Source of the DNA: Daejeonella sp.
Lineage (GTDB): Bacteria; Bacteroidota; Bacteroidia; Sphingobacteriales; Sphingobacteriaceae
NCBI RefSeq assembly: GCF_017495225.1
Contig: NZ_JAFEIG010000033.1
Coordinates: 1 to 64,000 of the forward strand
Length of the DNA: 64,000 nucleotides
Direction of reading: 5' to 3'
Below, piece after piece: positions 22,293 to 44,995 of the stretch; positions within the stretch are counted from its first letter, which is position 1; each line of letters starts with the position of its first letter. The translations under genes were made by a program, and so were the position numbers. The notes under the pieces were generated by a model, which worked only from the letters and a program-made list of their open reading frames with translations, was not told where the DNA came from and made no database searches.

Positions 22293-22302
22293 TATTTATC
22301 AC

Positions 22303-22331
22303 GGTCTGTATTGAAAATTTTAATACAGACC
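22303..22331 (+). other. Intercistronic hairpin between susD 2 and the discoidin lipoprotein gene
   Basis: GGTCTGTATT (22303-22312) and AATACAGACC (22322-22331) form a perfect 10-bp stem with a 9-base AT loop, followed by a short T run. It probably works as a partial terminator or mRNA stabiliser inside the operon. Confidence 0.7.
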
Positions 22332-22347
22332 TTTAAATAAAGAAAAA

Positions 22348-22890
22348 ATGAAAAAAATAACTTACATGATACTAGCCTTTGCTTTGTTAGCAATTTCGGC
22401 TTGTGATAAGAATGATGCAGTACTTTTTAAAGATGAATCAACTGCAATTACTGCTGATAAAAAAGCATGGACAATTACCGCATCTAGCTTTTCTACACAG
22501 GAGGGCACAAATGGTTCGCCTCAAAAATTATTGGATGGGGATAGATTGACTTATTGGCATACTGATTATTCGGTTGTAACTCCTTATCCGCATTGGGTAT
22601 TAATTGACATGAAAACGGCTGTTAAAATGATATCGGTTGGTATCACTAATCGTTATGCAGCAACACCCAATGCTGCAGGTATGAAGAAATTTAAACTTGA
22701 AGCTAGTACTGATGGCACAACTTTTACCTCTTTTGGTGAGTTTAATTTTGCTATTTCAAATGATCTTCAAAATTTCCCAGTATCATCGGAAGTAGCATAT
22801 CGTTATTTAAAACTTACTGCATTAGAAACTCAAAGAGTAGGCACGAATCATACATTTTTGTCTGAAATTGATGTTTTTGCTGTTAAATAA
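22348..22890 (+). CDS. Surface lipoprotein with a discoidin (F5/8 type C) domain
   Basis: A 180-residue protein with a lipobox ending AISAC (Cys19) and one F5/8 type C/CBM32-like domain filling the rest (about residues 40-180). Typical motifs are LLDGDRLTYWHTDY, YPHWVLIDM and RYLKLTALE. Such domains bind galactose-type sugars. No catalytic module is present, so it is likely the SusE-like surface glycan-binding protein of this locus. The domain is clearly related to the C-terminal domain of the protease encoded next, which suggests duplication. A strong terminator closes the transcript after this gene. Confidence 0.85.
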   Translation: MKKITYMILAFALLAISACDKNDAVLFKDESTAITADKKAWTITASSFSTQEGTNGSPQKLLDGDRLTYWHTDYSVVTPYPHWVLIDMKTAVKMISVGITNRYAATPNAAGMKKFKLEASTDGTTFTSFGEFNFAISNDLQNFPVSSEVAYRYLKLTALETQRVGTNHTFLSEIDVFAVK

Positions 22891-22915
22891 TAATTCTATC
22901 CCAAAAATTACAACG

Positions 22916-22947
22916 ACCCAGCAAATGATTATTTGCTGGGTTTTTTT
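22916..22947 (+). terminator. Rho-independent terminator after the discoidin lipoprotein gene
   Basis: ACCCAGCAAAT (22916-22926) pairs perfectly with ATTTGCTGGGT (22931-22941) around a 4-base loop, followed by a T7 run. Confidence 0.92.
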
Positions 22948-22992
22948 AATGTTTTAAAGAACATTTATTTGAATTAATTGAGGATATATTGC

Positions 22993-24588: not shown

Positions 24589-24606
24589 TTTTTTAAATAA
24601 TTACAA

Positions 24607-25887: not shown

Positions 25888-26124
25888 TTAATATTATTAA
25901 TTTTGTATTAATAAAATTAACAGTTAATCTTATCATAGATATTCTTATCTCTGAACTTTTAAATCGACTATAATTGTTTTTTAAGGTTTAAAACTGTTAA
26001 AAATATTATAGATATTGTTCATTTAACTTTATTTATACTGTATGCTTCTTGTTTTTATTCTTTTAGCATTAGCTTTGAAATTATAGATTTCTATTATTCA
26101 TAAAAGAAGAATCCATAATTGGAG

Positions 26125-29004: not shown

Positions 29005-29006
29005 CA

Positions 29007-29182
29007 CTACATCATTACCACACAAATCGATTTTATTTTTCAAAAAATTAAGTGCTTTTTAAACACAGTTTGATGTAGTCTAAATATTGCTCATGAAATC
29101 ATTAAACATAGTTTTTGGCTTATTATTAAACTTTTTTTGAGTGTTTGAGGCGAGTCATTTTATTATATGTGTAGTGATGTAG
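29007..29182 (+). promoter_or_regulatory. Three TGATGTAG boxes upstream of susC 3
   Basis: TGATGTAG occurs inverted at 29007-29014 and directly at 29071-29078 and 29175-29182. Extended to 14 bases, the first and third read TGATGTAGTGTTAT and TGATGTAGAGTTAT; the middle is TGATGTAGTCTAAA. The first begins two bases after the regulator's stop codon and the third ends 73 bases before the susC start. They are candidate binding sites of the upstream sensor-regulator. Confidence 0.5.
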
Positions 29183-29255
29183 AGTTATTTTATTTGGTGA
29201 AACATCAAAACAATTCGATTTTGTTCTCGGTTTAACAATTAACTAATTAAAAATT

Positions 29256-32200
29256 ATGAAACAAAAATCTCTACTAGTATTTTTATTTCTTATCACTTGT
29301 TTTAGTGCATTTGCACAAAATATCAAAGTATCCGGAAAGGTTACTGATGGTACTAGCAATGAAGCATTAATCGGTGTAAGTATAAAACTTAAAGGTTCCA
29401 CAATAGGGACTCAAACGGATGCAAATGGTGGCTATTCTATTAGTGCACCTTCTAATGGTATTTTAGTTTTTACCTACATTGGTTTCGGTACAAAAGAAAT
29501 CAGTATTAATGGTAATACAACTATTAATACTTCTTTAACTACAAATTCAAACGAATTACAACAGATTGTGGTTGTTGGTTATGGAACTCAAAGAAAAATT
29601 GATGTTACAGGTTCTGTAGCTACTGTAAAGGGTTCAGAAATTTCTAAACAGGCTTCAATAAACCCAATTAGTGCTTTACAGGGTAAGGTAGCTGGTGTTT
29701 CTATTGTAAATAATGGTGCTCCAGGTTCTTCACCACAAATTACTATCCGTGGTACCGGAACAATTTACGGTAATACAGGAGTATTATATGTTGTGGATGG
29801 AGTATGGTACGATGAGGTAAGTTTCTTAAATCCTAATGATATTGAGAGTTTAAGTATTTTAAAAGATGCTTCTTCACAATCAATTTACGGTATTAGAGCT
29901 GCAAATGGTGTTGTTTTAATTTCAACTAAGAAAGGCACAAGAGGTGAACCAAGTATTAACTATGATGGATCTACAGGTTTTAAGGCTGTAACCAACCAGG
30001 TTAAGATGGCTAATGCTACTGAGTATGCTACTATAATAAATGAGCTTTCTGCATCAAATGGTGCTTCTCCTTTATTTCCTAATCCTTCTAGCTTTGGTGA
30101 AGGTACTAACTGGTACAATCAAGCTTTCAGAAATGCTTTACAAACTAATCATCAGGTATCAGTAAATGGTGGTTCTGAAAAGAATAATTACAACTTCTCT
30201 TTAGGTTATACAAATGAAGACGGTATCGTTAAAACTCAAGGTTATGAGCGTTATACCGCTAAACTTTCAAATGATTTCCGAATTTTAGATCCTTTAAAAG
30301 TTGGTTATACAGTTTCTGGGACTTCTATCAGTACCAATGATATCGATGGAGGAATCTTCCGTCAACTATATGCTGCTGGTCCGGTAGTTCCAGTTTATTA
30401 TGCAGATGGTAGTTATGGTGATGCAAACGACTTTAGTTTAGGTGGTGGAAATAACTTCAACCCTCAGGTAACTTTAGATTTTTTCAATCAAAAATCTAAA
30501 AACTATCGTATGACAGGTAATGTTTTTGCAGAATTAACTTTTGCTAAAAACTTCACTTTTAAAACAAGTGCTGGTGGCGATTTTGGACATAATGAAGTTA
30601 GAGGTTATACTCCTCTTTATGCTGCAACTCAGGGACAAAGAACTACACAAAGTACACTTAGAGTTAATAGAGGAGAAAACAGAAATTGGATTCTTGAAAA
30701 TACATTAACATACAAGAATACTTTTGGAGATCATAATTTAACAGTTTTAGCTGGTCAATCAGTTCAGAGAAGAAAATCTTACTTTTTAAACTCAAGTGCG
30801 TTCAATGTTCCTAATAATAGCGATGGTGATTTATACTTAGCGCTTGGTACTGCGGCAACACGTACTGTTTCTGATGGTGGAAACTTATCTACTGCGGCAT
30901 CATACTTCGGTCGCTTAAATTACTCATTCAAAAACCGTTATTTATTAAATGCAACATTACGTGCTGATGCCGCTTCTCAGTTTTTTGGTGGTGGAGATCT
31001 TTGGGGATATTTCCCAGCTGTTGGTGCAGGATGGGTTGTTAGTAATGAAGATTTCATGAAAGACCAAAAAGTTCTTAGCTACTTAAAGTTAAAAGGATCT
31101 TGGGGTAAAGTTGGTAATGCTGGTGTACCGGTAAATCCTACTACATTAACAGTATCTCAAGGTGGTGGCCTTGTTGCTTTCTTTAATGGTGTTGGTTATA
31201 CAGGAGCAAACGTTAACTCTTTAGTGCCTTCATTCTTAAACTGGGAGCGTACAGTTGGTACAGACCTAGGTTTAGAAGCTAGATTTTTCAATGATAAATT
31301 AAGCGTTGAAGCTGGTTTCTACAACAAGAAAACAGAACAAGCAATTTTTGAAATTCCAATTTTATCATCTATTGGAACTGCTTCAGGCTCCCTAATTGGT
31401 AACCAAGCAGATTTTCAAAATAGAGGTTTCGAATTTTTAGGATCATGGTCTGATCAAACTTCAAAAGGTTTATCTTACTCATTTAGTGCTAACTTCGGAT
31501 ACAACCAAAACAAAGTTCTTTCTGTTGTGACTGGTTTGAATCCAATTTTTGCTGGTGGTGCCGGAATTGCGAATGGAGCTTTAGCTACACGTACTATTCA
31601 AGGACAAGCAATTGGGCAGTTTTTTGGTTATAAAGTAGCAGGTATTTTCCAAAATGCTGCTGAAATAACAGGATCTGCACAACCAAATGCAAAACCAGGA
31701 GATTTCAAATATATTGATCAAAATGGCGACAAGGTAATTGATGGTAGAGACCGTGTTGTTTTAGGAAATCCAAATCCTAAATTTAATTTTGGTTTTAGCT
31801 CTAATTTTGAATACAAGAATTTTGATTTAACTGTTGATGTTCAAGGTGTGGCTGGTGTTGATGTGTATAATGCCAATTTAGCCTTCCGTTTCGGTAACGA
31901 AAACTTTAGTAAAGATTTCTACGATAACAGATGGAGAGGTGCAGGTACTTCAAACACTTATCCTTCAGCAGGAATTGGATCAACTACCAATGCTGCTCCA
32001 AACTCCTTTTATGTTGAGGATGGCTCATACATACGTTTAAGAAATGTTCAGTTGGGTTATTCTTTACCATCAAATATTGCAAATAAAGTTAAAATGCAAA
32101 GACTAAGATTCTTTGCTGATGCTCAAAATGCAATCAATTTATTTGGATACAGAGGATTTACGCCAGAAGTAGGTGGATCACCAACAAATGCTGGTATCGA

Positions 32201-32258
32201 TGCAAGTGTTTATCCATTATCTGGAACTTACAGATTAGGACTTCAAGTTACATTCTAA
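29256..32258 (+). CDS. SusC/RagA family TonB-linked outer membrane transporter (pair 3)
   Basis: A 1000-residue protein with a signal peptide ending SAFAQ, a CarboxypepD_reg-like domain (about 25-105), LQQIVVVGYGTQRK as TonB-box region, a plug with LKDASSQSIYGIRAANGVVLISTKKG, and a barrel ending GLQVTF. It is the first gene of a tightly packed run of transport and glycosidase genes and should import beta-1,2-linked gluco-oligosaccharides if the GH144/GH3 assignments are right. Transcription is probably driven by the sensor-regulator encoded just upstream. Confidence 0.95.
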   Translation: MKQKSLLVFLFLITCFSAFAQNIKVSGKVTDGTSNEALIGVSIKLKGSTIGTQTDANGGYSISAPSNGILVFTYIGFGTKEISINGNTTINTSLTTNSNELQQIVVVGYGTQRKIDVTGSVATVKGSEISKQASINPISALQGKVAGVSIVNNGAPGSSPQITIRGTGTIYGNTGVLYVVDGVWYDEVSFLNPNDIESLSILKDASSQSIYGIRAANGVVLISTKKGTRGEPSINYDGSTGFKAVTNQVKMANATEYATIINELSASNGASPLFPNPSSFGEGTNWYNQAFRNALQTNHQVSVNGGSEKNNYNFSLGYTNEDGIVKTQGYERYTAKLSNDFRILDPLKVGYTVSGTSISTNDIDGGIFRQLYAAGPVVPVYYADGSYGDANDFSLGGGNNFNPQVTLDFFNQKSKNYRMTGNVFAELTFAKNFTFKTSAGGDFGHNEVRGYTPLYAATQGQRTTQSTLRVNRGENRNWILENTLTYKNTFGDHNLTVLAGQSVQRRKSYFLNSSAFNVPNNSDGDLYLALGTAATRTVSDGGNLSTAASYFGRLNYSFKNRYLLNATLRADAASQFFGGGDLWGYFPAVGAGWVVSNEDFMKDQKVLSYLKLKGSWGKVGNAGVPVNPTTLTVSQGGGLVAFFNGVGYTGANVNSLVPSFLNWERTVGTDLGLEARFFNDKLSVEAGFYNKKTEQAIFEIPILSSIGTASGSLIGNQADFQNRGFEFLGSWSDQTSKGLSYSFSANFGYNQNKVLSVVTGLNPIFAGGAGIANGALATRTIQGQAIGQFFGYKVAGIFQNAAEITGSAQPNAKPGDFKYIDQNGDKVIDGRDRVVLGNPNPKFNFGFSSNFEYKNFDLTVDVQGVAGVDVYNANLAFRFGNENFSKDFYDNRWRGAGTSNTYPSAGIGSTTNAAPNSFYVEDGSYIRLRNVQLGYSLPSNIANKVKMQRLRFFADAQNAINLFGYRGFTPEVGGSPTNAGIDASVYPLSGTYRLGLQVTF

Positions 32259-32269
32259 TATAAAGAGCA

Positions 32270-33754
32270 ATGAAAATAAATTTTAGAAATACATATGTAC
32301 AAAAGATAGGCTTACTAATTGTAGGTGCTAGTCTTTTAGTTATGCCTTCATGTCAAAAGAGTTTCTTAGACGTTGAACCGCAAGCAACCCAGCCAGCTCT
32401 TACCTTTTGGAAAAGTCAAGAGGATGCAACTAAGGCTGTTAACTCTATTTATGCTAGCCTTAGAAATTGGGAAAATACAGCTTTTCCGGCATTGGCATTA
32501 GAAAGTATTCCAGGTGATGATGCCGAAAAGGGTAGCTCTCCAAACGATGCTAGCTTTTTAAATGACTTTGATAATTTCACTGTAACTTCTACGCAAGGTC
32601 AGTTAGAAGGATTTTGGAATGGTCAGTATCAAAACATTAATCTTTGTAACCAAGTTTTGGATAATATTCCAAACATCCAAATGGATGCAACTTTAAAAGC
32701 TAGATACTTGGCAGAAGCAAAATTTGTTCGTGCTTATTCATACTTTAGATTAGTTAGAGCTTTTGGCGATGTGCCATTACGTTTAACTGTACCAAAAGAT
32801 GCATCTGAATTTAATAAGCCAAGAACGCCTAAAGCACAGGTTTATGCAGCAATTGAGAAGGATTTAACTGAAGCTGCTGCAGCTTTACCGCAAACTTATC
32901 CTGCTGCTGATTTAGGTCGCGCAACTAAAGGTGCAGCTATGGCATTACATGCTAAAGTGGCGATGTACCAAGCTAAGTGGGATCAAGTTTTAACCTTAAC
33001 TAACTCTGTATTGGGTATGGGTTATAATTTAGTGCCAAACTTTGAGCAAAGTTTCCGTCTTAACAACGAAAATAGCATTGAATCTGTATTTGAAATTCAA
33101 TGTGAAATTGTGGCTGCTATTCCAGGTTCTGCAAATTCTCAATATAGCCAAGTTCAAGGTGTTAGAGGATCAGTAGCTGGTTGGGGCTTTAATGTTCCTA
33201 CCGCAGCTTTGGCAAGCGCTTTCGAAACAGGAGATACTAGAAGAGATGCAACAATCATCTTTAGAGGTGAAACAACGCCACAAGGTGATGCTATTGCCGC
33301 TACTGGTGATAATCCAATGTATAACCAAAAATCATATGTTCCGTTTTCATCAATTATTAGTGGATTTAATGAAGGTGCTCAACAAAATGTTAGGGTAATT
33401 AGATTTGCTGATGTTTTGTTAATGAATGCAGAAGCTGCTAATGAGCAGGGTAATACTACTCTTGCTTTAAATTCATTAAATAGAGTAAGAGCACGTGCTA
33501 GAGGTGGAGTTAGTGGAGTTTTGCCAGATGTTACCACAACTGATAAAGCTTTATTGCGTCAAGCTGTGTGGAAAGAAAGACAAGTTGAATTAGCTATGGA
33601 ATCTGATCGTTATTTTGATGTAATTCGTCAAGGACGTGCTGCAACGGTATTCGGAGCAAAGGGTTGGAAAGCTAATAAAAATGAAGTTTGGCCAATTCCA
33701 GCGAATGAAATTGATAAAGCAGCTGGTGTTTTAACTCAAAATACAGGTTATTAA
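32270..33754 (+). CDS. SusD/RagB family nutrient-binding lipoprotein (pair 3)
   Basis: A 494-residue protein with a lipobox ending VMPSC (Cys28). SusD motifs include ALTFWKSQEDATKAVNSIYASL, EAKFVRAYSYFRLVRAFGDVPL, IRFADVLLMNAEAANEQGN, KERQVELAMESDRYFDVIRQG and VWPIPANEID. It starts 11 bases after susC and forms the outer-membrane uptake complex with it. No unusual features are seen. Confidence 0.95.
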   Translation: MKINFRNTYVQKIGLLIVGASLLVMPSCQKSFLDVEPQATQPALTFWKSQEDATKAVNSIYASLRNWENTAFPALALESIPGDDAEKGSSPNDASFLNDFDNFTVTSTQGQLEGFWNGQYQNINLCNQVLDNIPNIQMDATLKARYLAEAKFVRAYSYFRLVRAFGDVPLRLTVPKDASEFNKPRTPKAQVYAAIEKDLTEAAAALPQTYPAADLGRATKGAAMALHAKVAMYQAKWDQVLTLTNSVLGMGYNLVPNFEQSFRLNNENSIESVFEIQCEIVAAIPGSANSQYSQVQGVRGSVAGWGFNVPTAALASAFETGDTRRDATIIFRGETTPQGDAIAATGDNPMYNQKSYVPFSSIISGFNEGAQQNVRVIRFADVLLMNAEAANEQGNTTLALNSLNRVRARARGGVSGVLPDVTTTDKALLRQAVWKERQVELAMESDRYFDVIRQGRAATVFGAKGWKANKNEVWPIPANEIDKAAGVLTQNTGY

Positions 33755-33772
33755 TAGTTTAAATTTAAAGAA

Positions 33773-34597
33773 ATGAATACAAAATATTTAATCATATTGG
33801 CAATTGGAGCTATAGGCTTTTCATCTTGCCAAAAAGAATTTGATCCATCTAGCTATGCACCGCCTTTAAATATTGGCGGCTATACAAGTGCTAAGCAAAT
33901 CGCTCCAAGCAATCTTGTTGCGCATTGGTCATTCGATGGAAACTTAATAGATAGCGTATCTAAAGTTGCTGGTACTTCTACTGGTACTGATTTTAGTAAT
34001 GGTGTTAAAGGCAAAGCTTTGCAAGGCGCACTAAACGGCTACGTTATAACCAATACTCCTACTGCTGTACAAAACTTAAAAAGTTTTACAGTAAGTCTGT
34101 GGCAAAATATGCCTTTAAATGATAAGGGCATTGTAGGCTTAATGGATATTGCTAATCCTAATAGTTTTTGGGGTAACCTAACCATATTTTTCGAGAATGG
34201 TGGCAATGCATCAACTGGTCAATTAAAAATGCGCGTTAACAATAATGGTGTTGATAATTGGTTGGGAAACTATGCTATGGTAAATCCATGGGATAAGTGG
34301 AATCATATCACTGCCAGTTATGATGCAGCAAGCTCTACTTATAGAATTTATGTAAATGGTTCAAAAATTGCAACTCAGGTGATTGCTAATAACGGACCAA
34401 TAACATTCCAAAACGCTCAAAAGATGGTGTTCGGAACAGTTCATTTTCAAACTCAACCAAGTTTAACTACAAGCACAGGTAAACAAGATTGGGCTAGTTA
34501 TTTAACTGGTCAGTTGGATGAAGTTAGAATTTACGATAAAGCATTAAGTGATGTAGAAATAAGCTCACTTTCTAAACTTGAAGGTAGAGGAAAATAA
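33773..34597 (+). CDS. LamG/concanavalin-like surface lipoprotein (SusE-position)
   Basis: A 274-residue protein with a lipobox ending FSSC (Cys19) and a single laminin-G-like domain (about 50-270): LVAHWSFDGNLIDSV, KSFTVSLWQNMP, WNHITASYDAASSTYRIYVNGSKI and LDEVRIYDKALSDVEI. Such domains bind glycans. By position directly after susD it is likely the accessory surface glycan-binding protein of the locus. A hairpin follows before the first enzyme gene. Confidence 0.85.
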   Translation: MNTKYLIILAIGAIGFSSCQKEFDPSSYAPPLNIGGYTSAKQIAPSNLVAHWSFDGNLIDSVSKVAGTSTGTDFSNGVKGKALQGALNGYVITNTPTAVQNLKSFTVSLWQNMPLNDKGIVGLMDIANPNSFWGNLTIFFENGGNASTGQLKMRVNNNGVDNWLGNYAMVNPWDKWNHITASYDAASSTYRIYVNGSKIATQVIANNGPITFQNAQKMVFGTVHFQTQPSLTTSTGKQDWASYLTGQLDEVRIYDKALSDVEISSLSKLEGRGK

Positions 34598-34604
34598 AAA
34601 CTAA

Positions 34605-34634
34605 TTAAGGGTTGCTCAATGGGGCAACCCTTAA
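34605..34634 (+). other. Intercistronic hairpin between binding-protein and enzyme genes
   Basis: TTAAGGGTTGC (34605-34615) and GCAACCCTTAA (34624-34634) form a perfect 11-bp stem with an 8-base loop, eight bases after the LamG gene stop. Only a weak T run follows, so it probably attenuates or stabilises the transcript rather than ending it. Confidence 0.7.
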
Positions 34635-34646
34635 ATTTAAAATAGA

Positions 34647-36305
34647 ATGAATAGATTTTTTACATTTTTACTATTACTCTTAACGATTGTTAGCTGTAAA
34701 AAATCAAGTACTGTTATAACTCCAACTAACCCAACACTACCTTCCACGTATTTTTTTACCGATTTAAAAGTAAATGGTGCATTCAGCGGTTTTACCTATA
34801 ATGGTTTAAATCAGGAGCCTGAAATTAAAATCTCATTTTCTGCTCCAATTAATGCTGCCTCAATAAAAGATAATATCAATCTTTCAGATTCATTTGGCAA
34901 TACAGCTACATTTAGCTCTACATTCGAAAACAACGATAATACACTTGTAATCAAGCCAACGGCTCTACAAGCGCTTACAAAATATATATTAACAGTCAAT
35001 ACTGGATTGTTATCTAAACTTGGAAACAAGCTTCAAAGTGCAGTCACGGTAAATCTTACTACTTCAGCAAATGATGTAGATAAATTTGCCCGTATCTCCG
35101 ACAACGACCTCCTCACCCTAATCCAAAAACAAACATTTAAATATTTCTGGGACTTTGCTCATCCCAACAGCGGTATGGCACGTGAGCGAAATACCTCTGG
35201 AGATATTGTAACTACTGGCGGTACCGGTTTTGGCATCATGTCTATCGTAACCGCAGTGAACAGAAATTTTATTACCCGAATTGAAGGAAAGGCACGAATT
35301 CAAAAGATTCTTTCTTTTTTAAAGTCGGCCGACCGCTTTCACGGTGTTTTCCCACATTGGATCAATGGAAATACCGGAAAAGTACAAGCGTTTAGCGCTA
35401 AAGATAATGGCGCCGATCTTGTAGAAACAGCTTTTTTAATGGAAGGCTTACTCGTTGCTCGTCAATATTTTAATTCAAATGATGCAGATGAAGTAAACCT
35501 ACGTGCCGACGTAAATCTTCTTTTTAATGCCGTTGAATGGGATTGGTTTAGAAAAAATGGTGAAGATAGATTGTATTGGCATTGGAGTTCAAATTTTAAT
35601 TGGGAAATGAATCTTCCAGTTAGAGGCTGGAATGAAGCCTTGATGGTTTATGTTTTAGCCGCATCTTCTACTACTCATACCATCCCAAAATCTGTTTATG
35701 ATGCGGGCTGGGCAGCAAATGGCGGCATGAAGAATGGAAATACATATTATGGTGTTCAATTGCCTTTGGGGCCTCCTAATGGCGGACCATTATTCTTTGA
35801 GCATTATAGTTTTATGGCATTAAATCCGAATTCACTTACAGATGCTTATGCCAATTATGAAGTTCAAGCTAAAGCCCACACCAAAATAAATTATAATTAT
35901 TGTGTGGCCGATCCACTAAAATTTGGCTATTCAAAAGATTGTTGGGGCTTAACAGCAAGTGATATAAATGGTGGATACACAGCCAGTTCTCCTAATAATG
36001 ACAAGGGTTATATTGCTCCTACAGCTGCTGTGGCATCTTTGCCTTTTGCTCCCGAGGAGTCAATGCAGGCTATTCGCTTTTTCTATTATAAATTAGGTGA
36101 TAAATTATTGGGCGAATATGGCTTTAAAGATGCTTTTTCACTTCATGATCCATGGTTTGCTCAATCTTATTTAGCTATTGATCAAGGCCCTCAAATTGTG
36201 ATGATTGAAAATTACCGTACAGGATTGATTTGGGATTTATTTATGTCATGTCCCGAAGTAAAATCTGGATTAATAAAACTTGGCTTTCAAAGCCCCAAAA
36301 TTTAA
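34647..36305 (+). CDS. GH144-type endo-beta-1,2-glucanase lipoprotein with N-terminal Ig-like domain
   Basis: A 552-residue protein with a lipobox ending IVSC (Cys17), a Big_5-like domain (about 45-150) and a glucoamylase-like (alpha/alpha)6 domain of the PF10091 type from about residue 155. Motifs include QTFKYFWDFAHPNSGMARER, FHGVFPHWINGNTGKV, DLVETAFLMEGLL, LYWHWSSNFNWEMNLPVRGWNEA, GGPLFFEHYSF and MIENYRTGLIWDLF. Characterised members of GH144, such as the Chitinophaga pinensis enzyme, hydrolyse beta-1,2-glucan to sophorose-type oligosaccharides. A surface or outer-membrane position is likely from the lipid anchor. A second copy follows two bases after its stop, and a GH3 gene lies downstream, supporting the substrate call. 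Confidence 0.82.
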   Translation: MNRFFTFLLLLLTIVSCKKSSTVITPTNPTLPSTYFFTDLKVNGAFSGFTYNGLNQEPEIKISFSAPINAASIKDNINLSDSFGNTATFSSTFENNDNTLVIKPTALQALTKYILTVNTGLLSKLGNKLQSAVTVNLTTSANDVDKFARISDNDLLTLIQKQTFKYFWDFAHPNSGMARERNTSGDIVTTGGTGFGIMSIVTAVNRNFITRIEGKARIQKILSFLKSADRFHGVFPHWINGNTGKVQAFSAKDNGADLVETAFLMEGLLVARQYFNSNDADEVNLRADVNLLFNAVEWDWFRKNGEDRLYWHWSSNFNWEMNLPVRGWNEALMVYVLAASSTTHTIPKSVYDAGWAANGGMKNGNTYYGVQLPLGPPNGGPLFFEHYSFMALNPNSLTDAYANYEVQAKAHTKINYNYCVADPLKFGYSKDCWGLTASDINGGYTASSPNNDKGYIAPTAAVASLPFAPEESMQAIRFFYYKLGDKLLGEYGFKDAFSLHDPWFAQSYLAIDQGPQIVMIENYRTGLIWDLFMSCPEVKSGLIKLGFQSPKI

Positions 36306-36307
36306 AC

Positions 36308-37657
36308 ATGAAATATTTTTACACCATTTGTCTTTTAATTTCTGTTTCACTTTTTTCATGTGGACTTAAAAAAAACGTTCAAATTGATGGTAAATTAAGC
36401 GATGAACAGCTTCTTGATACAGTTCAATACCATAGCTTTCAATACTTCTGGGATGGTGCTGAGCCTATTTCTGGTGCTGGAAGAGAGCGTTACCATGAAG
36501 ATAATATTTATCCCCAAAATGATAAAAATACAGTAGCTACTGGTGCTGCCGGATTCGGTTTAATGGGCATCATTAGCGGTATTGATCGGAAATTTGTAGG
36601 TAGAGAAGAGGGTGTTGAAAGACTAAGCAAAATTTTAAATTATCTTAAAAAGGCTGAACGTTTTCATGGCGCCTGGCCTCATTGGATGGTTGGCGAAACC
36701 GGTAAAGTAAGACCTTTCTCAAAATTTGATGATGGTGGCGATTTAGTGGAAACATCTTTCGTTGCTCAAGGACTTATCTGTGTGAAACAATATTTTAAAA
36801 ATGGAAATCGTGAAGAAAGAGCCCTTTCTGCATTAGCTGATGAGCTATGGAAAGGTATCGACTTTGATTTCTATCGTAATGGAAAGAATGTTTTATACTG
36901 GCATTGGAGTCCGCAAAATCAATGGAAAATGAATTTCCCTGTGAAAGGTTTCAACGAATGCCTAATTATGTACGTGATGGCTGCCGCCTCTCCAACACAT
37001 GGAATTGATAAAAAAGTGTATGATGAAGGTTGGGCAATGAGTGGTGATATTAAATCTCCGCGCTCTTATAAAGATATTTCACTTCAGTTTTTTCATCAAG
37101 GAGATGAACCCTATGGCGGACCATTATTTTGGGCACATTATTCCTTCTTGGGTTTAAACCCTAATGGCCTTAAAGATGCCTATGGTGATTACGGACTCGA
37201 AGCTAAAAATCAAGCTTTAATTAATTATCAGTGGTGTGTGGATAATCCGCTTGGATATAAGGGTTATGGTAAGAATAGCTGGGGACTCACATCAAGTTAT
37301 TCCATGATTGGTTACGCGGGTCATGCTCCTAGCAAAGAAAAAGATTTAGGCGTAATTACTCCAACTGCTGCCATTTCATCTCTTGTTTATACTCCAGATC
37401 AGTCTATGGCTGCCATGCGTTACTGGTATGAAAATAAAAAAGATAAAATCTGGGGGAAATTTGGCTTCTATGATGCCTTTAGTGAAAGCGCTAACTGGTA
37501 TGTTCCTAGATATTTAGGTATCGATAAAGGTCCTGAAGTGGTGATGATTGAAAACTACCGAAGTGGATTGTTGTGGAAATTATTCATGCAGGATGAAGAT
37601 GTACAATCTGGATTGAAGAAATTGGGCTTTGAAAGCCCCTATTTAAAAAAACAGTAA
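36308..37657 (+). CDS. Second GH144-type glucanase lipoprotein
   Basis: The start is set at ATG 36308, which gives a clean lipoprotein signal (MKYFYTICLLISVSLFSC, Cys18) two bases after the preceding stop; the open frame begins further upstream inside that gene. The 449-residue product lacks the Ig-like domain of its neighbour but shares all catalytic-domain motifs: TVQYHSFQYFWDGAEP, RFHGAWPHWMVGETGKV, LYWHWSPQNQWKMNFPVKGFNE, GGPLFWAHYSF and MIENYRSGLLWKLF. It is a tandem paralogue. One copy may cut the polymer outside and the other act on oligosaccharides in the periplasm; that division is an inference. Confidence 0.82.
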   Translation: MKYFYTICLLISVSLFSCGLKKNVQIDGKLSDEQLLDTVQYHSFQYFWDGAEPISGAGRERYHEDNIYPQNDKNTVATGAAGFGLMGIISGIDRKFVGREEGVERLSKILNYLKKAERFHGAWPHWMVGETGKVRPFSKFDDGGDLVETSFVAQGLICVKQYFKNGNREERALSALADELWKGIDFDFYRNGKNVLYWHWSPQNQWKMNFPVKGFNECLIMYVMAAASPTHGIDKKVYDEGWAMSGDIKSPRSYKDISLQFFHQGDEPYGGPLFWAHYSFLGLNPNGLKDAYGDYGLEAKNQALINYQWCVDNPLGYKGYGKNSWGLTSSYSMIGYAGHAPSKEKDLGVITPTAAISSLVYTPDQSMAAMRYWYENKKDKIWGKFGFYDAFSESANWYVPRYLGIDKGPEVVMIENYRSGLLWKLFMQDEDVQSGLKKLGFESPYLKKQ

Positions 37658-37658
37658 A

Positions 37659-39383
37659 ATGAAAAGGTTTAGTATAATTTTATTTTTCTCCTTTATTTTT
37701 TTCACTGGGCAAACTTATGCCCAATTTTCTCAAATGAAAACCTATTGTAATCCGATAAACTTGGATTATACCTACATGATTTATAACTCTGATAAAAACA
37801 TCTCATACCGTTCGGGTGCTGATCCGGCTGTGGTTGAGTTTCGTGGCGAGTATTACATGTTTGTAACTAGATCTTTGGGTTATTGGCACTCCACAGACTT
37901 AAGTAACTGGAATTTTATTAAACCTGAAAAATGGTATTTTCAAGGCTCTAATGCCCCTGCAGCACATAATTATAAGGATTCTGTTTTATATGTTATGGGT
38001 GATCCTTCTGGATCTATGAGTGTTTTATACACTGATAATCCTAAAAAAGGTGATTGGAAGGCTACCCCGTCCATTTTAAACGATTTACAAGATCCTGCCT
38101 TATTTATCGATGATGATGATAAAGCCTACATCTATTGGGGTTCATCAAACTTATTTCCTATTCGAGCGATAGAATTAGATAAAAACCGCCGCTTTAGTCC
38201 CAAAGGGAATAAAGTCGAATTATTTAATTTGGATGAGTCGAAGCATGGATGGGAACGATTTGGTGATAATCATAGCTCAACTATGGAGGGCTATATGGAG
38301 GGTGCTTGGATGACTAAGCATAATGGTAAATATTATTTGCAGTATGCGGCACCTGGGACTGAATTTAACGTGTACGGTGATGGTGTTTATACCGCAGATC
38401 ATCCGCTTGGCCCCTTTACTTATGCACCCAATAACCCCGTTTTTTACAAGCCTGGAGGTTTTATTAATGGCGCAGGGCATGGAAGCACGGTCTTAGGGCC
38501 AGGAGGTCAATATTGGCATTTCGCATCTATGGCTGTTTCTGTGAATGTGAACTGGGAAAGAAGATTATGTGTTTTCCCAACCTGGTTTGATCAAGATGGC
38601 TTGATGTACAGCAATACTTCTTTTGGAGATTACCCACATTATGCTCCATCAATCCCGGGTAAACAAGGTGACTTTACGGGATGGATGCTTTTATCCTATA
38701 AAAAACCTGTACTGGCATCCTCCGCTGTTGATACTTTAAGCGCAAACCATGTTACAGATGAAAATGTAAAATCATTTTGGTTGGCTAAGTCTAATGATGA
38801 TCAGCAATGGTTGCAAATTGATTTGGAAAAGCCTGCTCAAGTTCACGCCATTCAAATTAATTACCATGATTATAAATCAAATCTTTATGGTCGCCCGGAT
38901 AGCATGTTCCACCGCTATGAAGTTCAGGGTTCACTTGATGGCAAAAATTGGTTTAGTCTAATTGATCGAAAGAAAAGTTTTAAGGATGTTCCGAACGATT
39001 ATGTAGAACTTGAAAATGCGCAAAGAGTAAGATACATTAAGTATAATAATTTACGAGTACCTACACCACATTTGGCAATTTCGGGACTTCGGGTTTTTGG
39101 GAAAGGAGAAGGTAAAATTGCCGAACCTGTGAAGGCTTTTAAAGTTGATAGACAAAAAGATCAACGTGATGCTTTACTTACTTGGAATAAAGTAAATGGA
39201 GCTCAAGGTTATAATATTAAATGGGGAATTGCTCCCGATAAATTGTATAATTCATGGCTAGTTTATGATGCTAATAGTCTGGATTTAAAGAGTTTAACTG
39301 TTGGTCAATCCTATTATTTCAGCATCGAATCATTTAATGAAAATGGAGTTTCAAAAGCAACAGAACCTGTAAAGGTTAATTAA
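37659..39383 (+). CDS. GH43-like glycosidase with discoidin and fibronectin III domains
   Basis: A 574-residue secreted protein (signal ending TYAQ). A five-bladed GH43-type propeller carries the expected acidic triad: Asp55 in GADPAVV, Asp145 in QDPALFID and Glu214 in MEGAWMTK. A discoidin domain follows (about 350-490; HVTDENVKSFWLAKS, WLQIDLEKPAQVHAI) and then a C-terminal Fn3 domain (about 495-572). GH43 enzymes usually act on arabinose, xylose or galactose linkages, so its place inside a beta-1,2-glucan-like locus is unexpected and hints at a substituted substrate. The start is one base after the preceding stop codon. Confidence 0.8.
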   Translation: MKRFSIILFFSFIFFTGQTYAQFSQMKTYCNPINLDYTYMIYNSDKNISYRSGADPAVVEFRGEYYMFVTRSLGYWHSTDLSNWNFIKPEKWYFQGSNAPAAHNYKDSVLYVMGDPSGSMSVLYTDNPKKGDWKATPSILNDLQDPALFIDDDDKAYIYWGSSNLFPIRAIELDKNRRFSPKGNKVELFNLDESKHGWERFGDNHSSTMEGYMEGAWMTKHNGKYYLQYAAPGTEFNVYGDGVYTADHPLGPFTYAPNNPVFYKPGGFINGAGHGSTVLGPGGQYWHFASMAVSVNVNWERRLCVFPTWFDQDGLMYSNTSFGDYPHYAPSIPGKQGDFTGWMLLSYKKPVLASSAVDTLSANHVTDENVKSFWLAKSNDDQQWLQIDLEKPAQVHAIQINYHDYKSNLYGRPDSMFHRYEVQGSLDGKNWFSLIDRKKSFKDVPNDYVELENAQRVRYIKYNNLRVPTPHLAISGLRVFGKGEGKIAEPVKAFKVDRQKDQRDALLTWNKVNGAQGYNIKWGIAPDKLYNSWLVYDANSLDLKSLTVGQSYYFSIESFNENGVSKATEPVKVN

Positions 39384-39499
39384 TAAATAAACCGTTTTTT
39401 CCATTTTATTGGGAAAAGCAAAGATTGTTCAACAAATAGGTTTTGTAGAATAAAGCACAAAAATATAATTACATAGAAAAACTAATTGAGAGAGAGAAA

Positions 39500-41821
39500 A
39501 TGAGATCATTAAAGTACCTAATTGCAATTTCGGCATTAACAATTTATACAGCATGTGCTCAACAAAAACAAAATCTACAAACATTAAAGACTAGCAATAC
39601 CGCTTCTCAAAGCAAAATGGATATTTTTCTTAATGATTTAATGTCCAAAATGACTGTTGAAGAGAAAATTGGACAGTTAAATTTACTTACAGGTGGTGAG
39701 GCAATTACCGGCTCTACTGGCAATTCTGATTTAGAAAACAAAGTAAAACGTGGCGAAGTTGGCGGTTTTTTCAGTCTAACAAGTCCGCAAAAAATTCGTA
39801 AAGCTCAAGATTTAGCCGTTAATCATACCCGTTTAAAAATCCCACTAATTTTTGGTTTGGATGTTATCCACGGCTATAAAACTACTTTTCCTATTCCTTT
39901 GGGTATGTCGGCGACTTGGGATATGCCATTAATTCAAAAAAGTGCTCAAATTGCTGCCGAAGAAGCTGCGGCTGATGGTATCAACTGGACTTTCTCTCCC
40001 ATGGTTGATATCTCTCGCGATCCACGTTGGGGAAGATTTTCTGAAGGTAGTGGCGAAGATCCATTTTTAGGTTCTGAAATTGCAAAAGCTATGGTTATTG
40101 GGTACCAAGGAGATGATTTGGCAAAAATCAACACTTTAATGGCCTGTGTTAAACACTTTGCCCTCTATGGCGCAGGTGAAGCCGGAAGAGATTATAATAC
40201 GGTAGACATGAGCAAAGTGCGTATGTACAATGAATATTTGCCTCCATACAAGGCAGCTATTGATGCAGGTGCTGGTAGTATCATGACTTCCTTTAACGAG
40301 ATTGATGGTGTTCCGGCAACGGCTAATAAGTGGCTTTTAGACGATCTTTTGAGAAAAGACTGGCAGTTTAAAGGATTAGTTGTTACCGATTATACTGGTA
40401 TTAATGAAATGGTTGAGCATGGTTTCGGCGATTTAAATCAGGTTTCTGCTTTAGCATTAAAAGCGGGTGTAGATATGGATATGGTGGGCGAAGGTTTCTT
40501 GCTTACTCTTAAAAAGTCGTTAGAAGCTGGTTCGGTATCCATTGAGGATATCAATCGTGCTTGCCGCTTTGTTTTAGAAGCAAAATATAAATTGGGTCTT
40601 TTTGAAGATCCATTTAAATATTGTGATGATGAGCGCTCCAAAACCAAAATATTCACTGCCGAAAACAGAAAAATTGCGCGTGAAGCAGCCACAAAAAGTT
40701 TTGTTTTATTAAAAAATGCGAATAATGTTCTTCCAATAAAAAAGACGGATAAAATAGCTTTAATTGGTCCATTAGCCGATTCAAAAGTTAATATGCCCGG
40801 CACTTGGTCGGTTTCTACTGATCTTAGTAAAGCAATTTCAGTGAGAAAAGGTTTAGAAGATGCACTAGGAGCCAGCAATAAATTGATTTATGCAGTGGGT
40901 TCAAACCTATTAGAAGATCCTGAGTATCAAGAACGCGCTACCATGTTTGGTCGTACAATTCCTCGTGATAATCGTCCGGAAGCAGAAATGATTAAAGAAG
41001 CTCTTGATGCGGCTAAGCAATCGGATGTTATTGTTGCTGCCCTTGGCGAAAGTTCTGAAATGAGTGGCGAAAGTTCTAGTCGCACAGATATCAAGATTCC
41101 TGATGTTCAACGCAGATTGCTTGAGGCTTTATTGGCCACAGGAAAACCTGTAGTTTTATTAGTGTTTAATGGTCGTCCATTAGATCTTAGCTGGGAAAAT
41201 AAACATGTTCCTTCAATCCTTAATGTGTGGTTTGGCGGGTCTGAGACTGGTCATGCTATCGCGGATGTTTTGTTTGGCGATGTAAATCCTTCAGGGAAAT
41301 TATCGGCAACTTTTCCTCAAAACATCGGACAAATTCCAATTTATTATAGTCATAAAAATACTGGCCGACCGCTTGCGGAAGGCGAATGGTTTAAGAAGTT
41401 TAAGTCTAATTATTTGGATGTTAGCAATGAACCTCTTTATCCATTTGGATACGGATTAAGCTATACTAATTTCGAAATTTCAGCACCTGTTTTGAGTGCA
41501 AAATCGATGACTTCTACTTCAACTATTCAGGTTTCAGTGCAAGTAAAAAATACGGGTGCTAGAGATGGTGAAGAAGTTGTTCAATTATATATTCGCGATT
41601 TGGTAGGCTCTATTACCCGTCCCGTAAAGGAATTGAAAGCTTTTCAAAAGGTATTTTTGAAGGCCGGCGAGTCAAAGCAAGTGAATTTTAAGCTTAGCAT
41701 CGAGGATCTTAAATTCTATAATTCTAATTTAGATTTTGTAGCCGAACCGGGAGATTTTAAAGTTTTTGTAGGAAATAGCTCTGCAAACACAAAGTCTGCC
41801 GATTTTAATCTTAGCAAATAA
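39500..41821 (+). CDS. GH3 family beta-glucosidase (BglX-like)
   Basis: A 773-residue protein with a lipoprotein-type signal (YTAC, Cys19). The TIM-barrel domain has KIGQL, FGLDVIHGYKTTFPIPLG, DPRWGRFSEGSGEDPFLG and KHFALYGAGEAGRDYN. Asp297 in VVTDYTG is the expected nucleophile. The second domain carries Glu524 in SGESSSRTDI as the expected acid/base, and an Fn3-like C-terminal domain starts near 670. Members next to GH144 genes act on sophorose and longer beta-1,2-glucosides in other Bacteroidota. The gene follows a 116-base gap, longer than others in the run, with a purine-rich GAGAGAGAGA just before the start that may aid initiation. Confidence 0.92.
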   Translation: MRSLKYLIAISALTIYTACAQQKQNLQTLKTSNTASQSKMDIFLNDLMSKMTVEEKIGQLNLLTGGEAITGSTGNSDLENKVKRGEVGGFFSLTSPQKIRKAQDLAVNHTRLKIPLIFGLDVIHGYKTTFPIPLGMSATWDMPLIQKSAQIAAEEAAADGINWTFSPMVDISRDPRWGRFSEGSGEDPFLGSEIAKAMVIGYQGDDLAKINTLMACVKHFALYGAGEAGRDYNTVDMSKVRMYNEYLPPYKAAIDAGAGSIMTSFNEIDGVPATANKWLLDDLLRKDWQFKGLVVTDYTGINEMVEHGFGDLNQVSALALKAGVDMDMVGEGFLLTLKKSLEAGSVSIEDINRACRFVLEAKYKLGLFEDPFKYCDDERSKTKIFTAENRKIAREAATKSFVLLKNANNVLPIKKTDKIALIGPLADSKVNMPGTWSVSTDLSKAISVRKGLEDALGASNKLIYAVGSNLLEDPEYQERATMFGRTIPRDNRPEAEMIKEALDAAKQSDVIVAALGESSEMSGESSSRTDIKIPDVQRRLLEALLATGKPVVLLVFNGRPLDLSWENKHVPSILNVWFGGSETGHAIADVLFGDVNPSGKLSATFPQNIGQIPIYYSHKNTGRPLAEGEWFKKFKSNYLDVSNEPLYPFGYGLSYTNFEISAPVLSAKSMTSTSTIQVSVQVKNTGARDGEEVVQLYIRDLVGSITRPVKELKAFQKVFLKAGESKQVNFKLSIEDLKFYNSNLDFVAEPGDFKVFVGNSSANTKSADFNLSK

Positions 41822-41837
41822 AGCAAAAAAAGATTTT

Positions 41838-41905
41838 TAGGTATTTCTTCATTTTTTGGCTAATTTTCAATTGAATTAACAACAATCAAAATGAAGAAAT
41901 ACCTA
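41838..41905 (+). promoter_or_regulatory. Perfect 18-bp inverted repeat occluding the NIPSNAP start codon
   Basis: TAGGTATTTCTTCATTTT at 41838-41855 is the exact reverse complement of 41888-41905, which contains the ATG and the first five codons of the next gene. The loop is 32 bases. In RNA this would bury the start codon in an 18-bp helix beginning 17 bases after the GH3 stop codon. It may be a translational switch or a processing site. Confidence 0.8.
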
Positions 41906-42637
41906 CTAATTTTATTCCTTTTTCTAAGTCAACTGAGCATTGTAAAGGCGGCGGATAATCGCTATTATGAATTAAGAGTTTATTATTGCAATCCTGGGAA
42001 ACTGGAGGCTTTAATTACCAGATTTAGAGATCATGCGGTGCCATTGTTTAAGAAGCATGGAATCGAAGGATTGGGATATTGGGTGCCTACTAAAAGTTCG
42101 GATAATTCATTTTATTATTTGATGTCTTACCCAAATAAGGAGGCTAGAGATGCATCTTGGAAGGCTTTTGCTGCCGACCCAGAATGGAAAGAAGCTGCTA
42201 GGAAGTCGGAGGAGAATGGAAAATTGGTTGCTAAAGCTGAAACATATTTCTTAAAAACAACAGATTATAGCCCTAAGTTTAAAGCTTCTAAATCAGGCGA
42301 ATTGAGCACTTTTGAAATGCGTATCTATACCGCAAAACCTGAAAAATTACCCAATCTTGAATCTCGTTTTAGAGATCATACCATGAAAATATTTAAGAAC
42401 ATGGGTATGAAAAACATCATTTATTTCACTACCATTGAGAGTGATCCTTCTGTTCAACCTAAATTGCTTTACTTCCTATCGCACAAAAATGAGGCAGCAG
42501 CCAAATTATCTTGGGCAAATTTCCGGAAGGATCCTGAATGGATTAAAGCTAGTACCGAATCTGAAGCGAATGGCAAATTAGTAGAAAAAGTAGAAGCTGT
42601 TTATATGCAGGGGATGGATTTTTCGATGTTAAAATAA
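41891..42637 (+). CDS. Secreted NIPSNAP-family protein with two ferredoxin-like domains
   Basis: A 248-residue protein with a signal peptide ending VKAA. It holds two tandem NIPSNAP/dimeric alpha-beta-barrel domains (about 23-125 and 137-245), each with YELRVYYCNPGKLEALITRF- or FEMRIYTAKPEKLPNLESRF-type starts and an A...W..F..DPEWK/I motif. NIPSNAP proteins have no agreed enzymatic role; in Bacteroidota they often lie in sugar-degradation loci. The start codon sits in a perfect inverted repeat, so expression may be controlled at translation. A bidirectional terminator follows. Confidence 0.88.
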   Translation: MKKYLLILFLFLSQLSIVKAADNRYYELRVYYCNPGKLEALITRFRDHAVPLFKKHGIEGLGYWVPTKSSDNSFYYLMSYPNKEARDASWKAFAADPEWKEAARKSEENGKLVAKAETYFLKTTDYSPKFKASKSGELSTFEMRIYTAKPEKLPNLESRFRDHTMKIFKNMGMKNIIYFTTIESDPSVQPKLLYFLSHKNEAAAKLSWANFRKDPEWIKASTESEANGKLVEKVEAVYMQGMDFSMLK

Positions 42638-42654
42638 TGCTTATCAGCAAATTC

Positions 42655-42700
42655 TAAATTTAAAGGTAGAAGGTACTAATCCTTCTACCTTTAAAATTTA
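42655..42700. terminator. Bidirectional terminator between convergent NIPSNAP and GH95 genes
   Basis: TTTAAAGGTAGAAGG (42659-42673) pairs perfectly with CCTTCTACCTTTAAA (42681-42695) around a 7-base loop. The stem extends by four further pairs after a one-base bulge, and the flanks supply T runs on both strands. It overlaps the GH95 stop codon at 42698-42700. Confidence 0.88.
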
Positions 42701-44995
42701 TATCTCCCAAAACTCCACCCCACTATTCTCTTTAAACTCTACCTCAATAAATCCATTTCCTAAATCCTTCACCTTTAATTTTGAGGTGTTTTTGTATTCA
42801 TATTTTCCCCAATTAGCTTTTATTTTGAGGGTTCCACCTTTTTCGGATTGAATTTTTAAGCTTTTTAATTTTCCGTTTTTCTTTTCGGCACTCACTAGAT
42901 AAGCTCCTTCAGCACGTAAGGTTTGGAATGAAACATTATCCCAACTAGTTGGAATGGCAGGAAATATTTCTAGAAAACCAGCATGCGACTGCATTAACAT
43001 TTCTTGTAATCCGGAGGCAAAAGCGAAATTTCCTTCCAAGGTGAATGGTCTGTAATGAGCGTCCGAATAACCAGATTTAGTCTGGTCGCCATTTACATGG
43101 AAGCTATTGCTCGAGCAAAAGGCTTTGGCAAAAATTGTTAGAGCCTTTGCCGCACCCTCTCCATCTTTTGCTCTTGCATTCAAATTTCCCAACCATGAAT
43201 AGGAATATCCCACCCAGCCTTTTGGACCTATGCTATCTAAAAGCTTAATGCTGGATTTGATTATATCTTTCGATGCATCTGAATCTTCCCACTTGACTAA
43301 TCCCAAAGGGTGTATAGACATCATGTGCGAAAAATGACGATGTGAGGAAGAATATGGATAGTCTGGAGCAACCATTAATTCTTTATTTTCTGAAAGTGCC
43401 AATTCGGGTAGTTGAGTGTATAATTCCGACCAATGTTCGGCTTCTCCCTTTAATTTTAATTCCTGAGCTAGCTCTGCAGCTACCTTAAAATTGAATTGCA
43501 TCAATGATAAATCATAATTGGTTGTTTTGGTAAACCAGGCACTTGCATCATTGTCGTTTATTTCGGGACTAGAGCTGATTACGAGTTTTCTTTTACCTGT
43601 TTTTTCGTCTAAAACAGAAATCTGTTCTAAAAATTGGGCTGTCGATTTTATCCAAGGATAGGCCTTTTCTTTCAAAAATTCCTTGTCCATGCTATAGCGC
43701 CACTGTAAGTAATAATGCTGTGAAATCCATGCTGAAACGGTTGGGGATAGTGAATATTGAATCCATCCGCCCATCTCAGTCCCGTCGAGTGTAGTTACCC
43801 CTGGTACGGCTATTCCCTCTTTAGCAAAAAACTGCTTGGTATAGCGCTTATAGTTATCCTTATTCGATTCAAAATGATTCAGGTAACCCATTGCTTCATT
43901 CAGGTGATTGGCGCTGTAGGATGGCCAATAACTAAGCTGGGTGTTTAAATCATGGTGGAAATCTCCTTTCCAGGGCGGTATGCGACCATTATCTGCCGAC
44001 CAAATAGCTTGTAGTGAGATTGGTGGTGTATTTTCACGAGCAGTTGCTCCAAATTTATATTGTTCCATCTCCCATTGATGCTGTAAAACGGGGTCTGGAA
44101 CCTTCAAGTTTGATTTAGCCCAAAAAGTTGTCCACCAAGCTAAATGACTCTTTTTATTGTTCTCAAAGCCAGATTTAAGTAGTGTTTCTAATGATTTTTG
44201 ATCGAGATTGCTATTAAAATTATCTGGATTACTTCTTATGGTCCAAACCCCTTCAATTGTTTTTGAATCTATTTTTTTCCAGGAAACAATAACTTCATAG
44301 GAGAAATCGCCCCAGCCTTTTTGCTGATAAATGATGGTATTATTTTCTTTGCTAAGCTTTCCTTGTTCATAACCCAAGCGACCTAAATCATCGCCGCCAA
44401 CAGGATCGCCACTGTTTTTTACTTGACTTTGGTAAGCTGGGGGAATTAATTCAACATCGAAACCTGTGCTGAGATTTTCAAATTTAAACCAACCAACAGG
44501 TTTTTCTGCATGGACAAAAGTTTGTAAGCGCGCGCCATTTTTCCAAGTAATTTCCGAGATCGCTTCATTCAGATTTAATTGAGATTCAGCAATTTCAAAT
44601 CCCTTCGTAAATTTAAACTCAATCCCAGCCCCCGGAATTTTTGTCGGCGCCGGTTCCCGATCATAAGGCCAATCAAAATATTCCTGCACCGGTTTATAAT
44701 TATTTTTTAGCCTTTGTTCTGTAACCCATTGGAAGCTAAATTCATCGCGGTGAAGCCCTTTCATCGGTCTGCTATCCCAAAGGTCTGCACGATCTAATGC
44801 AAAACGTAAAACTTGATTTTTCTCCCAAACCAAAGCACCCAACATGCCATTGCCAAGTGGGATCGCTTCATCCCATTGCTTGGGTAGCGGATTAAACCCA
44901 TGTGTTCGTACTTGTCCTACTGACTTAATAGATAGGCATAAGCTCAGGATAAGTATTAAAAACATCCCACTTTGTTGTGTGTTTTTTTGATTCAT
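42698..44995 (-). CDS. GH95-family glycosidase (alpha-L-fucosidase or alpha-L-galactosidase)
   Basis: A 765-residue secreted protein whose N-terminal domain begins WDEAIPLGNGMLGALVWEKNQVLRFALDRADLWDSRP, followed by an (alpha/alpha)6 domain with HDLNTQLSYWPSYSANHLNEA, VISSSPEIND, SHRHFSHMMSIHPLGLV and WLGNLNARAKDGEGAAKAL. These match GH95. In the characterised bifidobacterial fucosidase two Asn residues in NxN help catalysis; here the corresponding motif reads DLN, from memory of the alignment. GH95 removes alpha-1,2-fucose or alpha-galactose caps. It is convergent to the beta-glucan locus and has no transporter partner of its own, so its link to that locus is uncertain. Confidence 0.8.
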   Translation of the reverse strand: MNQKNTQQSGMFLILILSLCLSIKSVGQVRTHGFNPLPKQWDEAIPLGNGMLGALVWEKNQVLRFALDRADLWDSRPMKGLHRDEFSFQWVTEQRLKNNYKPVQEYFDWPYDREPAPTKIPGAGIEFKFTKGFEIAESQLNLNEAISEITWKNGARLQTFVHAEKPVGWFKFENLSTGFDVELIPPAYQSQVKNSGDPVGGDDLGRLGYEQGKLSKENNTIIYQQKGWGDFSYEVIVSWKKIDSKTIEGVWTIRSNPDNFNSNLDQKSLETLLKSGFENNKKSHLAWWTTFWAKSNLKVPDPVLQHQWEMEQYKFGATARENTPPISLQAIWSADNGRIPPWKGDFHHDLNTQLSYWPSYSANHLNEAMGYLNHFESNKDNYKRYTKQFFAKEGIAVPGVTTLDGTEMGGWIQYSLSPTVSAWISQHYYLQWRYSMDKEFLKEKAYPWIKSTAQFLEQISVLDEKTGKRKLVISSSPEINDNDASAWFTKTTNYDLSLMQFNFKVAAELAQELKLKGEAEHWSELYTQLPELALSENKELMVAPDYPYSSSHRHFSHMMSIHPLGLVKWEDSDASKDIIKSSIKLLDSIGPKGWVGYSYSWLGNLNARAKDGEGAAKALTIFAKAFCSSNSFHVNGDQTKSGYSDAHYRPFTLEGNFAFASGLQEMLMQSHAGFLEIFPAIPTSWDNVSFQTLRAEGAYLVSAEKKNGKLKSLKIQSEKGGTLKIKANWGKYEYKNTSKLKVKDLGNGFIEVEFKENSGVEFWEI

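Follow-up and report, generated by a model that had tools for sequence, protein, structure and literature searches.

The 18 bases at 41838..41855 (plus strand; TAGGTATTTCTTCATTTT) read as an exact inverted copy of the start of a NIPSNAP family gene, and this left arm would likely shut down NIPSNAP translation on mRNA arriving from the polysaccharide genes upstream, an explanation to which we give about an even chance. The left arm, transcribed first, would pair with the right arm once the latter emerged; mRNA entering from the glycoside hydrolase family 3 (GH3) gene would carry both arms, form a helix and leave NIPSNAP untranslated, the element acting as a constitutive silencer. Read-through of the gene set upstream would in this manner no longer drive NIPSNAP, whose protein would be made solely from transcripts with a 5' end after about 41850. 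The gene may simply be kept low, and the preliminary description's proposal that low expression is set for the last gene is a plausible one. Coordinates refer to the window, the whole 64,000-nucleotide stretch of DNA that was analysed, unless another contig or locus is named; the window lies in contig C18 (302,499 bases).

The inverted repeat and its neighbourhood

The NIPSNAP family gene (PF07978; 248 aa) occupies 41891..42637 on the plus strand and has an N-terminus which by eye resembles a signal peptide. Immediately upstream, on the same strand, lies the GH3 gene (39500..41821), which belongs to about 16 kb of polysaccharide-utilisation genes (25888..41821, plus strand) coding for a regulator-like protein, what we take from gene size and order to be a SusC/SusD-like pair, a lectin-like protein, two glucoamylase-like proteins, GH43 and GH3. 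The genes of a polysaccharide-utilisation locus are usually assumed to be co-expressed. A GH95 gene (42698..44995, minus strand) is convergent with NIPSNAP, and between the two is a hairpin of 15 bp with a 7-nt loop (42659..42695, no strand assigned), which has the look of an ordinary terminator. The gap between GH3 and NIPSNAP showed no hairpin of terminator type, so read-through from the one into the other is plausible.

The left arm starts 16 nt past the GH3 stop codon. The right arm (AAAATGAAGAAATACCTA; 41888..41905, plus strand) spans the NIPSNAP start codon (ATG at 41891-41893) and the first codons, and the two arms are complementary at 18 of 18 positions, as the preliminary description had claimed. 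They are separated by a 32-nt spacer (41856..41887, plus strand), the predicted hairpin loop, and left arm and spacer together take up most of the 69-base gap between the end of GH3 (41821) and NIPSNAP. Ungapped extension of the repeat gave 29 nt at 86%. A wider quasi-palindrome (41820..41921, no strand assigned) has 76% identity to its own reverse complement and is weakly supported outside the arms: when the arms were held fixed and everything else was shuffled, 11 of 1000 shuffles matched the observed score, so the part outside the arms is at most weakly palindromic.

A scan of contig C18 for perfect inverted repeats (12 bp or longer, loops of 3-60 nt) gave 25, of which 11 reach at least 14 bp; most of these 11 are short-loop hairpins between ORFs. 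The repeat at 41838-41905 is the sole one of these 11 with a loop longer than 13 nt, the remaining ten having loops of 3-13 nt, and the sole one of the 25 that lies across a called ORF start, ORFs here being those picked by a basic script, which took the longest ATG-initiated frames of 240 bases or more with little overlap, and not those of a gene finder. When C18 was shuffled locally 60 times, repeats of 14 bp or more arose 0.15 times per run on average; the longest measured 15 bp and 18 bp was never reached. The repeat, a striking one for this genome, is beyond chance, which bears out the earlier claim that a chance origin was very unlikely. A second perfect 18-bp hairpin, with a 13-nt loop, was found in the gap between two ORFs at C18 90436-90484 (L039) and looks like a terminator. 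Two further perfect 17-bp repeats with long spacers (30 and 58 nt), both away from any called start codon, occur within the initial 211,000 bases of contig C35; repeats of this kind are thus uncommon without being unique. One of them is made of TGAGATATGAGA-like sequence that recurs nearby and the other is in an AT-rich gap; among the 14 longest C35 repeats listed none had a called start codon inside it. The repeat with the 58-nt spacer is intergenic, with no start codon near (C35 187298-187389; L107). The TGAGATATGAGA-containing inverted repeats, at C35 14195-14258, 15797-15857 and 20928-21004, look like a small dispersed palindromic repeat.

The position of the stem, 16 nt past the GH3 stop, and its 18 unbroken base pairs are also what would be seen in an element that serves the upstream operon in mRNA processing or at its 3' end, either protecting the end of the GH3 message or being cut by a double-strand RNase, with lowered NIPSNAP as a by-product. 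A precedent is provided by the stem-loops of Clostridium cellulolyticum (PMC4423207). This reading is quite unlikely: the loop is 32 nt against 3-13 nt in the other ten C18 repeats of 14 bp or more, no T run follows immediately, the structure was not called as a terminator, and a cut within the stem would hit the NIPSNAP start. Nor was any Rfam family found at its gathering score; a search of 41400-42800 with Rfam 15 gave eight matches with E ≤ 1, all under the gathering scores. An intrinsic terminator was likewise rejected, the 32-nt loop and stem being followed by CTAATTTTATT and no terminator being called. That the inverted copy was made by a fold-back chimera during assembly or amplification is extremely improbable; the genome is in 36 contigs, but the repeat is short, its 32-nt spacer does not give a clean palindrome, and it lies inside a contig of 302 kb.

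No consensus TAnnTTTG promoter was found in 41822-41890 with a matrix derived from 36 TAnnTTTG sites of C18. The best core site there scored -0.5, as compared with a 25th percentile of 1.9 and a median of 4.4 for 144 upstream regions, and a weak TAnnTTTG-like site, TAATTTTC at 41861, fell below the 25th percentile of these regions. The matrix is blunt (upstream regions had a median of 4.4, and their reverse complements still reached 3.1), does not cover other sigma types, and gave best scores of 0.2 to 6.4, mostly unremarkable, before the NIPSNAP genes of 11 relatives; the missing promoter is therefore weak evidence. TAnnTTTC was not enriched upstream of genes (23 forward and 19 reverse occurrences in 145 upstream regions).

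Predicted effect on the NIPSNAP start

The hairpin has a predicted energy of -23.6 kcal/mol. Opening energy was calculated as the cost of opening positions -12 to +13, with 75 nt of upstream sequence included, and the value for the NIPSNAP start, 21.4 kcal/mol, ranked first among the 247 called ORFs of C18 (median 5.1) and exceeded that of all 175 called ORFs in 211 kb of C35 (top 13.2, median 4.9). When the left arm alone was shuffled 200 times the opening energy averaged 4.2 kcal/mol, with a maximum of 10.4. A transcript beginning at 41838 gave 22.3 kcal/mol, one beginning at 41845 gave 10.9, and transcripts from eight tested points at 41850 and onward gave 1.2-4.0. The helix is thus predicted to bury the AUG together with the bases immediately preceding it in transcripts carrying both arms, and is predicted to be unable to form in those starting close to NIPSNAP.

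Published reporters indicate what a structure of this kind could do. According to Table 3 of a Prevotella bryantii study, protein fell to 0.12 of the control with a structure of -5.2 kcal/mol immediately ahead of the start and to 0.007 with one of -11.1 kcal/mol (PMC3155529); the comparison with -23.6 kcal/mol is rough, the energies coming from different programs. A hairpin of -9 kcal/mol placed 20 bases upstream of the start gave no inhibition in the same work (PMC3155529), so position matters, and the NIPSNAP start, unlike that construct, is itself within the stem. In Flavobacterium johnsoniae, structure at -20 to +20 is described as tuning initiation (PMC6847099). The earlier claim that a helix hides the start codon in mRNA with both arms is accordingly supported by the predicted folding and by the P. 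bryantii reporter data (PMC3155529).

The preliminary description went further and proposed, among other options, a thermosensitive or helicase-dependent switch, or a gate worked by an sRNA or by ribosomes. A helix opened by heat, by a helicase, by an sRNA or by ribosomes finishing GH3, turning NIPSNAP on, would agree with the sequestration of the start in silico and is nevertheless very unlikely. The unpaired probability of the AUG was 0.0017 at 37 C and at most 0.053 across 4 to 70 C in silico, and the mean pairing probability of the arms went from 0.994 to 0.985 across 4 to 37 C. A thermosensor is unlikely, since no temperature between 4 and 70 C opened the helix in silico, and an RNA thermometer was rejected on this in-silico ground, arm pairing still being 0.887 at 70 C. 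Sixteen nucleotides beyond a stop codon is about the edge of the ribosome footprint, and since the left arm starts at that distance a ribosome terminating at GH3 would hardly melt the helix. In favour of such a switch, it has been proposed for some coupled gene pairs that upstream translation opens structure at the next start (PMC12548453). A regulated gate of any sort also has against it that the left arm is single in its orientation in the genome and that the element is missing in 11 of 11 comparable relatives, so that no conservation or compensatory change backs a regulator; no evidence for such a gate was found.

Relatives, the seam and the origin of the left arm

A NIPSNAP gene was identified at E ≤ 1e-30 in 12 of 20 genus genomes, the present one included, and the same 12 and no others carried it at E ≤ 1e-40 among 301 sampled genomes of the family. 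The 5' ends were read in all 11 others (L003-L013), a truncated second copy in G003 (L014/L037) being left out as it lacks the start; closer relatives (P0001-P0009; 86-98% protein identity) are known here as proteins alone and stand outside the arm comparison. None of the 11 had an inverted repeat longer than 9 bp near the NIPSNAP start, and the left arm was missing from each. The longest case of note was a 9-bp inverted repeat over the start in L007, and the start opened at 2.3-5.3 kcal/mol in all 11. Compensatory changes between the arms, for which the preliminary description had suggested looking, were therefore not found among these genomes. It had also taken loss of the left arm with gene order kept as counting against its idea; the arm was missing in 11 of 11, but GH3 is not upstream of NIPSNAP in those loci, so they do not strictly refute it. 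Bearing on its other refuting condition, a transcription start between the arms, no consensus promoter was found there. A 765-aa convergent GH95-like gene, assigned by length and protein start, follows NIPSNAP in six of the 11 (L003, L006, L007, L008, L009 and L010). Inspection by eye suggested a tRNA-like gene in L012, ending some 47 nt ahead of NIPSNAP, and in L011 a fragment of tRNA-like sequence upstream of the gene.

The right arm was 17/18 identical in G019 (L007), and seven of the nine closest proteins begin MKKYLL. With up to two mismatches allowed, the genome contains the left-arm orientation a single time. Matches to the arm with two mismatches were found once each in C16, C20 and C35, two of them reading as MKKY gene starts. 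A genome search with 41780-41960 matched its own place alone, which disposed of the idea of a mobile end or a dispersed repeat. G019 shares a 55-bp block beginning at 41888 (E 3e-17), and three other genus genomes match it weakly; at E ≤ 0.01 the block was found in 36 of 301 family genomes, the present one included, mostly as weak matches. That the gene start is a mobile leader was rejected, the genus matches beyond the 55-bp block of G019 being weak.

The left arm lies at a rearrangement seam. Positions 2-3912 of the G019 locus (L007) matched 21945-25880 of the window at 82%, and the match resumed at window 41852 and L007 3961. In G019 a DUF3472 gene adjoins NIPSNAP, and the 16 kb of polysaccharide genes that separate these two flanking genes in the window are missing there. 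This difference reflects either a gain in the window or a loss in the G019 lineage. When the intergenic stretch of G019 was aligned with 41822-41890 the score was reached by 153 of 500 shuffles, so the seam is placed approximately and not to the base. A TTCATTTTTT match at the left arm's inner end prompted the idea of common intergenic ancestry with G019, which was rejected, the alignment being no better than shuffles. Flanking repeats were likewise rejected for the 16-kb difference: comparison of the two border stretches, 25861-26140 and 41701-42000, gave no direct match of at least 10 bases and a single 10-base inverted match.

GH3 relatives at E ≤ 1e-100 were present in six of 20 genus genomes, the present one included; none of the other five (one of them 68% complete) had NIPSNAP at E ≤ 1e-30. 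GH3 is near glucoamylase-like and SusD-like genes also in G002, G005, G008 and G010, in other surroundings and, in G005, with these genes in a different order. In a separate observation, L007 4001-4045 was 96% identical to window 41891-41935, the first 45 nt of the gene, and the remainder was 72% identical, whereas L007 and its sister L006 shared 67% over the first 45 nt and 95% over the remainder. The G019 gene start seems to have been replaced by recombination with a window-like gene, perhaps along with the upstream gene set.

The left arm was probably copied from the right arm, the right being the original, by one template-switch step or by fold-back repair. Copying in this direction is simplest because the right arm is a homologous gene start and the orientation of the left is single in the genome. 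Template switching is documented as a source of perfect RNA hairpins (PMC8794818). At this locus the left arm is an exact reverse complement of the nearby right arm. The arrangement looks recent, being seen in one species.

Such an event need not have had any effect. The repeat may be a neutral scar of template switching or fold-back repair, with NIPSNAP little used or always transcribed from a start inside the loop, a reading which is possible though somewhat unlikely. Its occurrence in a single species, with the left arm missing in 11 of 11 relatives, its seam position, the other long-spaced 17-bp repeats of C35 away from start codons, and the weakness of the palindrome beyond the arms are all as a scar would have them. 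Against a scar are a non-coding left arm free of mismatches, a NIPSNAP ORF that is intact and has close relatives at 86-98% protein identity, and the absence of an own NIPSNAP promoter by motif. Silencing of read-through translation, the explanation we prefer, can be joined with the origin of the arm into a fuller history, in which the island came to be placed upstream of the resident gene and one template switch put an inverted copy of the NIPSNAP start into the seam, insulating the gene translationally and being kept by selection; taken whole, this history is unlikely. If true, such insulation would give bacteria that do not initiate by Shine-Dalgarno pairing an instant and sequence-independent means of uncoupling a resident gene from an operon that arrives beside it.

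Comparison with known systems

A young helix over the last start codon would show that one mutation is enough to free a gene from its operon, with promoter and terminator untouched. Inverted copies of gene starts at rearrangement seams would be a cheap sign to seek. The effect should be strongest in Bacteroidetes, where structure at the start influences initiation sensitively (PMC3155529, PMC6847099). A limited search of the literature, which cannot show absence in print, found no paper naming NIPSNAP.

Intergenic stem-loops which set the output of neighbouring polysaccharide-degradation genes are described for the cellulosome operon of Clostridium cellulolyticum, where, by selective RNA processing and stabilisation, they determine stoichiometry (PMC4423207). 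Those stems act on the stability of upstream mRNA, whereas the NIPSNAP stem would bury the next start codon. In transposase leaders of the IS10/Tn10 type, an inverted repeat around the start folds back in read-through RNA and shields the gene against transcription from outside. The present case differs in that no insertion sequence was noticed at the seam, where no dedicated search was made, and in that the arms copy a gene start and not the end of an element. The hairpins attributed to template switching also arise when one copying error gives a perfect reverse-complement arm (PMC8794818); they were described for RNA genes, while the one here falls at a rearrangement seam, on the start of a gene that codes for protein.

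The sigG gene of Bacillus subtilis is, like NIPSNAP, a cellular gene downstream of an operon and carries a large leader hairpin against read-through, in this case from spoIIGA-sigE (PMC5942855). It differs in phylum and gene and in having its own promoter mapped there, whereas none was found by motif here and the exact inverted copy would bury the NIPSNAP start codon itself. In phage T4, longer early transcripts of gene e (lysozyme) and of I-TevI form an inhibitory helix over the start region, and late transcripts without the 5' strand of the helix are translated (PMC3014915). There the arrangement serves phage timing, with late promoters in the 5' strand, whereas NIPSNAP is a cellular gene behind a polysaccharide set. 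In both gene e and sigG a promoter close to the gene gives transcripts without the 5' strand of the helix (PMC3014915, PMC5942855). The likeness of NIPSNAP to gene e and sigG would lie in the predicted off state. The proposed silencing mechanism is of a known kind; what is new is its setting, and its likely origin is unusual.
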